Shown one piece after another: positions 17,252-24,979 of a DNA stretch of 64,000 nucleotides (position 1 is the first letter of the stretch; each line of letters begins with the position of its first letter). The notes beneath the pieces are model-generated. The model saw only the letters and a program-made list of their open reading frames with translations. It ran no database searches and was not told the origin of the DNA. The position numbers and the translations under genes were made by a program. Origin of the DNA: Thermocrinis sp. GTDB taxonomy: Bacteria; Aquificota; Aquificia; Aquificales; Aquificaceae. The stretch spans positions 1 to 64,000 of the forward strand of contig JAJHRQ010000001.1 in the NCBI GenBank assembly GCA_020833645.1, written 5' to 3'.

Positions 17252-20200
17252 ATGAGCCAGAACTTCATCACCAACACCCAAGAGAGGACTTTAGAGGGGA
17301 GGCTGAAAACTCTCACAAAACACAGCAAAGAGCTTAAGTTTTTGGTGGGCTTCTTTTACTTTTCCGGCGTGCAGGCACTGTATGAGACACTAAAGGAGTT
17401 GGAAAGGGAAGGAAGGCTAAAAGAAGAGCACATAAAGGTCCTTGTAGGCTTGAGCGTGGATAAGGGCGTCTATGGACTTTACGAGTTGGCGCATGGAAAT
17501 AAAAGCAAGGAAGAGGTGAAAAACAGCTTTTTGCAGTCCCTTGAGAAAGCCTTTACATCGGAGGAGCTTGACAAAAAGGAAATATACGAGCAGGTGGAGT
17601 TTTTCCTAAAGCTTTTGGAGGAGAAAAAGTTAGTCATAAGAAAGACCAGAGAGCCAAACCATGCAAAGCTTTATCTTTTCAAGCTTGAGGGAGACCTTCT
17701 ACAGCACACCTTTATCACGGGCAGTTCCAACCTAACCCTGGCGGGACTGAAAGGGCAAGAGGAGTTCAACGTAGAAATAAAGGATTACGGCTTTGAAAGC
17801 GCAGAAAAATACTTTGACGAAAGATGGGAAAGGGCGGTCCCTCTATCCCCGGAGGACATCATAAAAGTTTTCAAAACTCGGACCTTCTTTAAGGAGATCA
17901 CACCCTTTGTGGCATACGCTTACCTTCTGAAAAACTACTTAGAACTCCATCAGGGAAAGATCCCCATGTCTGAGCTTGAGGAGATAATGAAAAGGGCAGG
18001 ATACGAGCCCTACGACTATCAGCTTTCTGCGGTAGCCCAGGCGGTTGCCTGCTGTGAAGACCACGGAGGCGTAATACTTGCGGACGTGGTGGGACTTGGA
18101 AAAACCGTCATCGCATGCCTTACCGCCAAAGCTTTGGGAAAGAGAGGCATTGTTATATGCCCTCCGCACCTTGTGGGAGACGATTACGAAAAATCCGGGT
18201 GGAAAAAGTATATAGAGGACTTTGAACTTCATGGCTGGAAAGTCTTTTCTTTGGGAAAGCTGGAGGAGGTTAAAGAGTATGTAAAAGATAAAAACATAGA
18301 AGTGGTCATCATAGACGAAGCCCACCGCTTTAGGAACCAAAGGACAGAAAGCTATTTTTACCTTAGTGAAATATGCAGAGGAAAGACTGTTATACTTTTG
18401 ACCGCCACACCCTTTAACAACAGACCCGCAGACATCTTTGCCCTCTTAAAGCTTTTCACCATTCCCAAAAAATCCACACTGACCTTGGACGGAAACCTCG
18501 CAGACAGGTTTGACGAATACGACAACGAGTTCAAAAAACTGGCATACATCAACAACTATCACAATTCACCCGACAGTAAAAAAAGAGAGAAGGCTAAAAA
18601 GTATTACAAGGAGCTTTTTGGAGAAAGGGAAATAGATATTGAAAAGGTCTCCAAAAGGGCAAAGGAGCTTTCGCGAAAGATAAAGGCGGTCATTGAAAAG
18701 GTGGTCATCAGAAGGAACCGCCTGGACCTTAAATACTACAAAGACAAAATTGAAATGCCAAAGGTGAGGGACCCGCAGGAGTGGTTTTTTGAGTTGGACA
18801 AAAAACAGCTTGACTTTTACGACGAGGTGATAAAGGCTTTCTATGAGCCGGAGGAGGGCGGAAGATTTCACGGAGCCATATACATTCCCATAAAGTATGA
18901 AAAGGGCTATGTGCCCGAAGAGGATAACGCAGGGTCTCCCGAAGAGAGCTTTATATACCTTTATCAGAAAAACCTCTACGACTTTATGAGAAGACTTTTG
19001 GTAAAGCGTTTTGAAAGCAGTTTTAAGGCCTTTTATGAAAGCTTGAAAAACTTTAAAGACGTGCACCAGAGGGCTTTGAAATTTGCCGAGAAAACAGGAA
19101 AGTTCATCCTTGACAGAAAGCTAATGGAAAAGCTGGCAGATGCAACCGACGAGGAAATAGAAAAAGCCCTTAATGATTATAGACAGGCACTTGAAAGTGG
19201 AGAGATCAACAAGAAATACCACAAAATCTACGAAATTGACAAATTCAAAGAAAAGGAAAAGTTCTTCCGGCACATACAGGAGGACATAGAGCTTTTAGAA
19301 GAGCTAAGGCAAAAGGTGGAAGAGTTAAGGCTTTTGGAAGAGGACCCAAAGGCAAAAAGGCTTATTGAAGGTATAAAAGAGTTTTTGAAAAACAACATAA
19401 AGGTGGTGGTCTTTACCGAGTATGTGGATACCGCAAAGCACCTAAAGGAGTTGCTGGAAAGGGAGTTCAACGGCAAAGTCCTTTCCGCCATAGGACAAAT
19501 AAGCAAAAGAACACAGGAAGAAATCCTCAAAAACTTTGACGCCCAATACAAAGACCAAGAGGACAAATACCACATCCTTATAACCACCGACAAGCTTTCG
19601 GAAGGCATAAACCTAAACAGGGCTGGAGTGGTGATAAATTACGACATACCTTGGAACCCCGTGCGCGTGATCCAAAGGGTGGGAAGGATCAACCGCATAG
19701 GCAAAAAGGTTTATGATGAGATATTCATCGTTAATTTCTTCCCCACGGAGAAGGGAGCAGACATAGCCAAATCAAGGGAGATAGCCCAAACAAAGATGTT
19801 TATGATCCACCATGTTTTGGGAGAGGATGCCAAAATCTTTTCTCCCGAAGAGGAGCCCAAACCATCCGAGCTATACAAAAAGCTAAACACCTACCAAGAA
19901 GAAGAAGAAAGCTTTTTCTCAAAGGTCAAAAAGGAATACGAAGAGATCCTTGAAAAACATCCTTGGATAAAACAGGAGCTTGAAGAAATGCCACGCAGGG
20001 TAAAGGTAGCCAAAAAGGGAGAAAAGGACGAGCTTATGGTGTTCATAAGAAGAGGAAAAGACCTTTTTGTAGGATACAAGGACTACAGCCAAAACATGCC
20101 TGTAGAGGTTAGCTTTGAGGAGGTTTATGAAAAAATAAAGGCAAGCCCAGAGGAAAAGGGAAGGGAGCTTTCTCCGGAGTTTTGGGAGCATTACCAAAAG

Positions 20201-20548
20201 GTGCTTACAAGCCCTTCCTTTGTAATCAAAAGGGCAAGAAGTGAAAACAGCCTGGAAAGTAGGGCATTTAACATGGTCTCTACCCTTTTGAAGATGGATG
20301 AACTCAAAGAGGAGAGAAAATTTTTAAACGCTTTGATGGAGGACCTAACCGAATACCGAACCCTCCCCGAGTATGTGCTTTCGGAAATCACAAGTTGGGA
20401 GACGGTCTTAAACAAGCCAGAGGAGTTGAAAAAGAAAATACAAGAGCTAAAGGCAGACCTCGGAGAGGACTTCTTGGAAAAAACCAAAGCACGCTTTAAG
20501 GAAGAAAGCCAAGAGGTTATAATAGCAGTAGAAAACCAGCATGAGTGA
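17252..20548 (+). CDS. SNF2/DEAD-like helicase with N-terminal phospholipase D-like nuclease domain
   Basis: NHAKLYLF...TGSSNLTLAGL (HKD/PLD); ADVVGLGKTVIA (Walker A); VVIIDEAHRFRN; LLTATPFNN; TDKLSEGINLNRAGVVINYDIPWNPVRVIQRVGRINRIG. Confidence 0.93.
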   Translation: MSQNFITNTQERTLEGRLKTLTKHSKELKFLVGFFYFSGVQALYETLKELEREGRLKEEHIKVLVGLSVDKGVYGLYELAHGNKSKEEVKNSFLQSLEKAFTSEELDKKEIYEQVEFFLKLLEEKKLVIRKTREPNHAKLYLFKLEGDLLQHTFITGSSNLTLAGLKGQEEFNVEIKDYGFESAEKYFDERWERAVPLSPEDIIKVFKTRTFFKEITPFVAYAYLLKNYLELHQGKIPMSELEEIMKRAGYEPYDYQLSAVAQAVACCEDHGGVILADVVGLGKTVIACLTAKALGKRGIVICPPHLVGDDYEKSGWKKYIEDFELHGWKVFSLGKLEEVKEYVKDKNIEVVIIDEAHRFRNQRTESYFYLSEICRGKTVILLTATPFNNRPADIFALLKLFTIPKKSTLTLDGNLADRFDEYDNEFKKLAYINNYHNSPDSKKREKAKKYYKELFGEREIDIEKVSKRAKELSRKIKAVIEKVVIRRNRLDLKYYKDKIEMPKVRDPQEWFFELDKKQLDFYDEVIKAFYEPEEGGRFHGAIYIPIKYEKGYVPEEDNAGSPEESFIYLYQKNLYDFMRRLLVKRFESSFKAFYESLKNFKDVHQRALKFAEKTGKFILDRKLMEKLADATDEEIEKALNDYRQALESGEINKKYHKIYEIDKFKEKEKFFRHIQEDIELLEELRQKVEELRLLEEDPKAKRLIEGIKEFLKNNIKVVVFTEYVDTAKHLKELLEREFNGKVLSAIGQISKRTQEEILKNFDAQYKDQEDKYHILITTDKLSEGINLNRAGVVINYDIPWNPVRVIQRVGRINRIGKKVYDEIFIVNFFPTEKGADIAKSREIAQTKMFMIHHVLGEDAKIFSPEEEPKPSELYKKLNTYQEEEESFFSKVKKEYEEILEKHPWIKQELEEMPRRVKVAKKGEKDELMVFIRRGKDLFVGYKDYSQNMPVEVSFEEVYEKIKASPEEKGRELSPEFWEHYQKVLTSPSFVIKRARSENSLESRAFNMVSTLLKMDELKEERKFLNALMEDLTEYRTLPEYVLSEITSWETVLNKPEELKKKIQELKADLGEDFLEKTKARFKEESQEVIIAVENQHE

Positions 20549-24125: not shown

Positions 24126-24979
24126 AAAGCTTAAAAACAAGGCTAAAAAATTTAGTTAATTTGGTTGACACTACCACAAATAGATTAATAGCAATAGTGA
24201 TATTTCTACTATTAACCTATTGGATTTTAAAACCTTCACTAATTGAGGGCGTTTTAACAACTTTATTTGGTGCAATTTTGAGTATGCTTGTTGGTATATA
24301 CTCGGAAGAGATCAAATCCGAGAGAAAAATTAGGGAATTGAAACCGGCTATTTTATTGGAATTGAGGTATGTTCTTATTTCATTGATTGAAAACTTTGCA
24401 CGATTTTATGTAGCTTATTTTGCAGTTATAAGACTTTTTAAATTTGATTTAAAATGGTTTTATGAACTAACCGAAAAATATAGAAAACATTTCACTGAGC
24501 ATTTAATGAAAGAGATAAAAGTATGTATGGCTATCTATGAAAACTTTGGAAAATTGGAACCAAAAGATATTGAGAGAAGTATTAGGATTATAGAAGAAAT
24601 TATAATGGAAATACAATTAGGGTCGCAATATCCTACAATGGAAGACGTGCAACGCTACTTTGAAAAGCAGAAATCTATATGTAAAGAAAACAAGCCAAGC
24701 GTTAAACCTATTCACATGACACTATTAAATTCAATACTAAATAACCTATCAGCTTTGGATAAAGATTTTGCAGAAGATATATTTTATATATGGTATGAAA
24801 TTAACGAGCTTAACAAGGAATTTGAAGTTCTTAAAGAATCGTTGCGGATGGATCCTAAACTAATATTATCCATTCTAAAAAGGACTGAAAGAATAGCTAT
24901 TAAAATTGATGAAATCCTTGAGAAAGAAAGGGCTAACCTTTACACTGAACAAAAACAAATGCAATTCGTGAAAAGATAA
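24122..24979 (+). CDS. Hypothetical membrane protein, third gene of helicase-methyltransferase operon
   Basis: ATGA overlap with methyltransferase stop; two N-terminal hydrophobic segments (LIAIVIFLLLTYWIL; LIEGVLTTLFGAILSMLVGIY) then helical cytosolic domain. Confidence 0.75.
   Translation: MKSLKTRLKNLVNLVDTTTNRLIAIVIFLLLTYWILKPSLIEGVLTTLFGAILSMLVGIYSEEIKSERKIRELKPAILLELRYVLISLIENFARFYVAYFAVIRLFKFDLKWFYELTEKYRKHFTEHLMKEIKVCMAIYENFGKLEPKDIERSIRIIEEIIMEIQLGSQYPTMEDVQRYFEKQKSICKENKPSVKPIHMTLLNSILNNLSALDKDFAEDIFYIWYEINELNKEFEVLKESLRMDPKLILSILKRTERIAIKIDEILEKERANLYTEQKQMQFVKR

Follow-up and report, generated by a model that had tools for sequence, protein, structure and literature searches.

A PLD-SNF2 helicase gene linked to an Eco57I-family methylase gene in Thermocrinis: a probable ATP-dependent restriction-modification pair and a passenger gene specific to the lineage

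Three overlapping genes in Thermocrinis sp., encoding a nuclease-helicase, an adenine methylase and a small membrane protein, raise the question of whether all three form one defence system or whether only part of the row works as a unit. They lie in the 64,000-nucleotide stretch of DNA analysed here (the window; positions 1 to 64,000 of contig JAJHRQ010000001.1), which comes from an assembly of 1.26 Mb in 51 contigs. A preliminary description of this DNA had proposed a three-gene system with the membrane protein as a possible effector. The features are as follows.

17252..20548, + strand: PLD (HKD) nuclease joined to an SNF2-family SF2 translocase, 1098 aa, predicted restriction/motor subunit
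20541..24125, + strand: Eco57I-family N6-adenine DNA methyltransferase, 1194 aa
23451..23915, + strand: recognition domain of the methylase, TaqI_C-type, aa 971-1125, exchanged between sister species
24122..24979, + strand: lineage-specific accessory gene, 285 aa, of no known family, with two predicted N-terminal membrane helices and a helical cytoplasmic part

The coordinates and lengths of the three open reading frames (1098, 1194 and 285 aa), when re-read from the window, agreed with the preliminary description, as did the 8 nt shared by the helicase and methylase genes (20541-20548) and the ATGA overlap between the methylase and the third gene (24122-24125). Directly upstream of the pair, at 15865-17229 (+), lies a single ORF of 454 aa which by eye resembles a fusion of a TatD-type metal-dependent hydrolase and a radical-SAM protein. 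Downstream, 25004-26509 (-) holds four tandem copies of a small one-helix membrane/coiled-coil gene (MEFRDYVAILGGLIGILATFTGIMWMLVQQINKR...), which are 74-85% similar in DNA and whose copy number differs from that in the genome of a sister species (G053), and 26570-26965 (+) holds another small coiled-coil/one-helix gene (MPKAIDLELLQLLEDKLGK...), followed just downstream by a degenerate second copy (26982-27060, +); in the sister genome, further copies of the MPKAIDLELLQLLEDKLGK type are interleaved, by eye, with small nucleotidyltransferase-/HEPN-like gene pairs.

That nuclease and helicase are one chain, as had been described, was borne out by profile matches, since the 1098-aa protein exceeded the Pfam cut-offs for PLDc_2 (33.5 bits, cut-off 27), for the N-terminal PLD domain RE_NgoFVII (25.9 bits, cut-off 23.8), and for SNF2-rel_dom and Helicase_C. 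When 21 homologues with 34-77% identity to the window protein were aligned, the residues H137, K139, G157-S158-S159-N160 and E171, which make up one HKD half, were invariant, and so were the Walker A motif around G281-K284, the DEAH motif at 355-358 and QRVGRINR at 808-815. The protein therefore combines a nuclease and an SF2 translocase with intact catalytic motifs, as is characteristic of ATP-dependent restriction-modification systems in the broad sense of that class. Because it carries a single HKD half, the protein is expected to dimerise, by analogy with SauUSI (PMC7913695) and CglI (PMC4267653). Its C-terminal region (aa ~830-1098), to which no domain is assigned, could be a DNA recogniser in its own right, which would speak against guidance by the methylase. 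A helicase 97% identical is present in a Thermocrinis MAG.

To see how far the helicase is tied to a methylase, neighbourhoods were compared at two scales. Among 136 Aquificota genomes, 38 carried a helicase homologue (threshold E below 1e-30), and in the fetched neighbourhoods of 31 of these 38 the methylase lay downstream on the same strand; six of the seven other loci were cut by contig ends, and the seventh (G036) had a different neighbour. The wider scan covered one genome from each species and returned over 570 relatives. Of these, 79 loci were kept, all outside the Aquificota and from more than 15 phyla, and 65 of the 79 have a methylase homologue on the same strand and no more than 9 kb away; most of the remaining 14 were truncated near the helicase gene on at least one side. 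The phyla represented include Thermodesulfobacteriota, Bacteroidota, Planctomycetota, Chloroflexota, Patescibacteria, Cloacimonadota, Deinococcota, Fibrobacterota and Elusimicrobiota, among others, and copies also occur in viral contigs and plasmids. The commonest junction places the methylase directly downstream with a 4- or 8-nt overlap, and some loci have the reversed gene order or intervening genes. The results showed that the linkage is far above chance and that the helicase and methylase genes are a conserved two-gene module, in which the motor is linked genetically to a cognate methylase, another hallmark of the broad ATP-dependent restriction-modification class. Same-strand neighbours of the pair include defence-type genes, and unrelated extra genes are nested in or beside it elsewhere, such as OLD-type ATPases, TIR, SEFIR, AlbA/Schlafen, GajA, Abi_2, RhuM and others. 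The identities of methylase body and helicase differ in many pairs of loci, and partners have therefore sometimes been exchanged.

The division of labour within the pair is indicated by a comparison with the sister species. Between the window and G053 the helicase is 96% identical, in comparison to about 53% for the recognition domain of the methylase. At the DNA level, the upstream gene, the helicase and the methylase are 85-99% identical throughout, save for a drop from about 95% to 54-60% at 23501-23900, with a return to 94% at 23901-24100; this drop coincides with the TaqI_C recognition domain, and the helicase has no matching divergence hotspot. In other close pairs the helicase was 92-93%, the methylase body 84-90% and the recognition part 35-67% identical, so that across all close pairs the helicase is kept at 0.92-0.96 and the recognition part at 0.35-0.67. 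Over 72 loci, Mantel tests, which were uncorrected for phylogeny or alignment error, gave r of 0.57 between helicase and methylase-body distances (reached in 0 of 2000 permutations) in comparison to 0.08 between helicase and recognition-domain distances (131 of 2000). A motor with a site of its own would have to co-vary with the methylase, but the helicase stays constant while the recognition domain is exchanged, suggesting that the methylase guides the PLD motor. From these sequence comparisons we infer that the methylase would give the target specificity and that the PLD translocase would be the restriction subunit. On a Prevotella nigrescens plasmid (NZ_CP082843.1, locus L186, 8593-20216), two genes with Eco57I-type methylase domains come after the helicase-methylase pair but run in the opposite direction, and the region also holds an Mpi-family serine invertase gene; this arrangement suggests programmed, phase-variable shuffling of specificity.

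The 1194-aa protein was recognised as the N6-adenine methylase it had been taken for, with profile matches to Eco57I (159.7 bits), N6_Mtase and TaqI_C, and consists of an N-terminal alpha/beta domain (aa 1-200), a helical region, a methyltransferase core with NPPY (aa 723-726) and the TaqI_C-type recognition domain. Its best PADLOC matches are REase_MTase_IIG models (462 bits), and in Prevotella intermedia the Pin17FIII system, a putative homologue with an upstream SNF2/RAD54 helicase, was assigned to Type IIG (PMC5608340). Both would suit a methylase that is a self-sufficient Type IIG restriction-modification enzyme, with the PLD-SNF2 gene separate or auxiliary. Such an enzyme needs a nuclease of its own, and the N-terminal domain was considered as a PD-(D/E)XK nuclease and rejected: it contains no conserved D/E...(D/E)xK acid pair among 45 homologues, and its model, built with these homologues at pLDDT 90, matched no PDB structure significantly (the best E was 0.013, and TM did not exceed 0.26), with no restriction nuclease among the structures listed. 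A Type IIG nuclease in the methylase is therefore not supported, and the linkage to the helicase in more than 15 phyla also argues against self-sufficiency, so that we consider this reading rather unlikely. The residues that are conserved in the N-terminal domain are G55, R114, S116, R134, T147 and F167, and, as far as the model goes, the domain may be a new nuclease fold. The helicase, for its part, matches DrmD, HmaA and BrxH models in the PADLOC and NCBIfam libraries, and the genome carries a DUF499 gene on another contig, which would agree with a pared-down form of DISARM or of a BREX-related (HMA/BR Type-2) system, using distant partners elsewhere in the genome. The DrmD match is, however, far below the NCBIfam equivalog cut-off (158.5 bits in comparison to 610), the DUF499 gene is unlinked to the pair, G053 and G052 hold the pair without DUF499, and G055 has DUF499 without the pair at the threshold used. 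The families listed around the distant homologues do not include DUF499 either. The absence of BREX or DISARM partners noted earlier holds for the whole genome with respect to PglZ and MZB/DrmB-type genes, and neither was found in any of five genomes searched, with profiles that were positive in two controls for PglZ and in eight for MZB (DrmB/DUF1998); a DUF3780 search gave no match in the five genomes, and its control matched nowhere either. Membership in DISARM, BREX or DUF499 systems was rejected as the partner genes were not found with the pair, and a stripped-down version relying on distant partners is very improbable.

The same comparison across loci decides on the third gene. Its protein is, as described, of no known family, with no Pfam, NCBIfam, PADLOC or PHROGs match above cut-off, and two hydrophobic helices were predicted in its homologue by a hydropathy scan, in line with the two membrane segments reported; a single-sequence model was all-helical with low confidence (pLDDT 51). 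The reading of all three genes as one unit, with the membrane protein as an effector or membrane anchor that the helicase-methylase pair triggers, draws on the ATGA overlap. Two species retain this overlap although their third-gene proteins are 55% identical, which suggests that coupled translation has been maintained. The distribution argues otherwise: the gene was found in only 2 of 136 Aquificota genomes (its own and G053, of the same genus), at the matching position in neither G051 nor G052, also of that genus, nor in any other locus, and beside none of ~80 distant helicase homologues. Weak tblastn matches in G040 and G026 overlap, by eye, DNA primase and RecN and were set aside as coiled-coil chance matches, and searches of viral contigs, plasmids, PHROGs and PDB sequences gave nothing convincing. 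Next genes that are closely coupled and have a predicted membrane helix were few, at 2 of 46 and 2 of 26 cases; one of them was that of G053 itself, and the two others examined were unrelated. Between the window and G053 the third gene had a dN/dS of 0.70, whereas the helicase had 0.11, the methylase body 0.22 and the upstream gene 0.10; the dS of the third gene was also raised (0.42 in comparison to about 0.15), so that the gene has likely been exchanged or is evolving very fast. The preliminary description had itself named an unlinked third gene as the outcome that would speak against a three-gene system, and across the family the gene is unlinked. A membrane effector as a conserved component is rejected on this distribution, and a triggered three-gene unit has little probability. 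It is similarly doubtful that, in this Thermocrinis-like lineage, the coupled and fast-evolving membrane protein serves as an effector in a second line of defence or as a phage-exclusion factor, co-changing with the recognition domain. What survives of the original proposal is a defence-type unit of nuclease-helicase and N6-adenine methylase; the membrane protein is most likely dispensable for this core and an accessory restricted to the genus, and fits the pattern of changing accessory genes seen at other loci. In the sister species (locus L037) an in-frame stop near codon 193 splits the methylase into ORFs of 192 and 996 codons while helicase and third gene are intact, and the system there may therefore be in decay.

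Taken as a whole, the pair has the appearance of a restriction system that spends energy to act on foreign DNA. The probable reading is that the two genes form an ATP-dependent restriction-modification system and that the third is a passenger specific to this lineage. In this two-gene system the methylase would read an asymmetric site by means of its C-terminal TaqI_C-type domain and would add m6A to the DNA of the host. Like SauUSI, the PLD-SNF2 protein would dimerise through its nuclease halves, each with a single HKD motif. The methylase would recruit or license this protein where sites are unmethylated; the protein would then translocate along DNA, using ATP, and cut the foreign DNA with its PLD site, which would provide phage defence. 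The specificity of both marking and cutting would then reside in the methylase, and the target would change by domain swap while the motor remains constant. Exchange of the recognition domain beside a constant motor predicts just this, namely that the methylase directs the PLD translocase and that the target is set by one domain. If true, PLD enzymes like CglI and SauUSI would be tied to the logic of Type I and Type III systems. The architecture is simple and widespread, in more than 15 bacterial phyla, and is unnamed as a unit in the libraries used: PADLOC matches point to DrmD, BREX helicases and Type IIG models and no NCBIfam equivalog covers the module, so that annotation is likely to mislabel the pair. 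No published two-gene system of PLD-SNF2 protein and Eco57I-type methylase was found by name in the literature searched, a search that left REBASE and many subscription papers outside and is not proof of novelty.

Comparison with known systems places the pair as follows. In class 1 DISARM the helicase is DrmD, the methylase DrmMI and the PLD protein DrmC. The window shares these three functions, an SNF2-like helicase, an adenine methylase and a PLD activity, and differs in having the PLD domain fused to the helicase, no DrmB-type gene, and a helicase short of the DrmD cut-off. The R-proteins of CglI and NgoAVII are of the PLD type. These systems combine a nuclease, a helicase-like ATPase and a methylase, and the window protein matches the RE_NgoFVII PLD domain; the separate nuclease and DEAD-family ATPase of CglI/NgoAVII form an R2H2 complex distinct from the methylase and cut ATP-dependently near an asymmetric site (PMC4267653, PMC5737866), whereas in the window nuclease and ATPase are on one chain and recognition appears to lie in the methylase. 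SauUSI likewise carries nuclease and helicase-like translocase on one chain, dimerises via its nuclease domains and shreds DNA in an ATP-driven manner, but reads methylated DNA by a recognition domain of its own and has no methylase partner (PMC7913695). Fusions of an N-terminal HKD/PLD domain with a SWI2/SNF2 helicase are already known and not new, and occur with N6-adenine methylases in DUF499-type BREX-related Type-2 systems (PMC12839542) and in archaeal operons (PMC7641849). The window shares with the BR Type-2/HMA systems this helicase and an N6-adenine methylase in the same operon, and differs in consisting of two genes, with no DUF499 ATPase found in the operon; nor was DUF3780 seen, by the search whose control matched nowhere. 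The archaeal operon has a COG1743 methylase in comparison to the Eco57I/TaqI_C-type methylase here. Pin17FIII, with Type IIG-annotated m6A methylase(s) and the upstream SNF2/RAD54-family helicase, may be a relative of the window pair, and its methylase alone marks GGYGAB in E. coli (PMC5608340). The system is simpler than DISARM or the DUF499 BREX-related systems, and its nearest biochemical models and precedents are SauUSI (PMC7913695) and CglI/NgoAVII (PMC4267653, PMC5737866).
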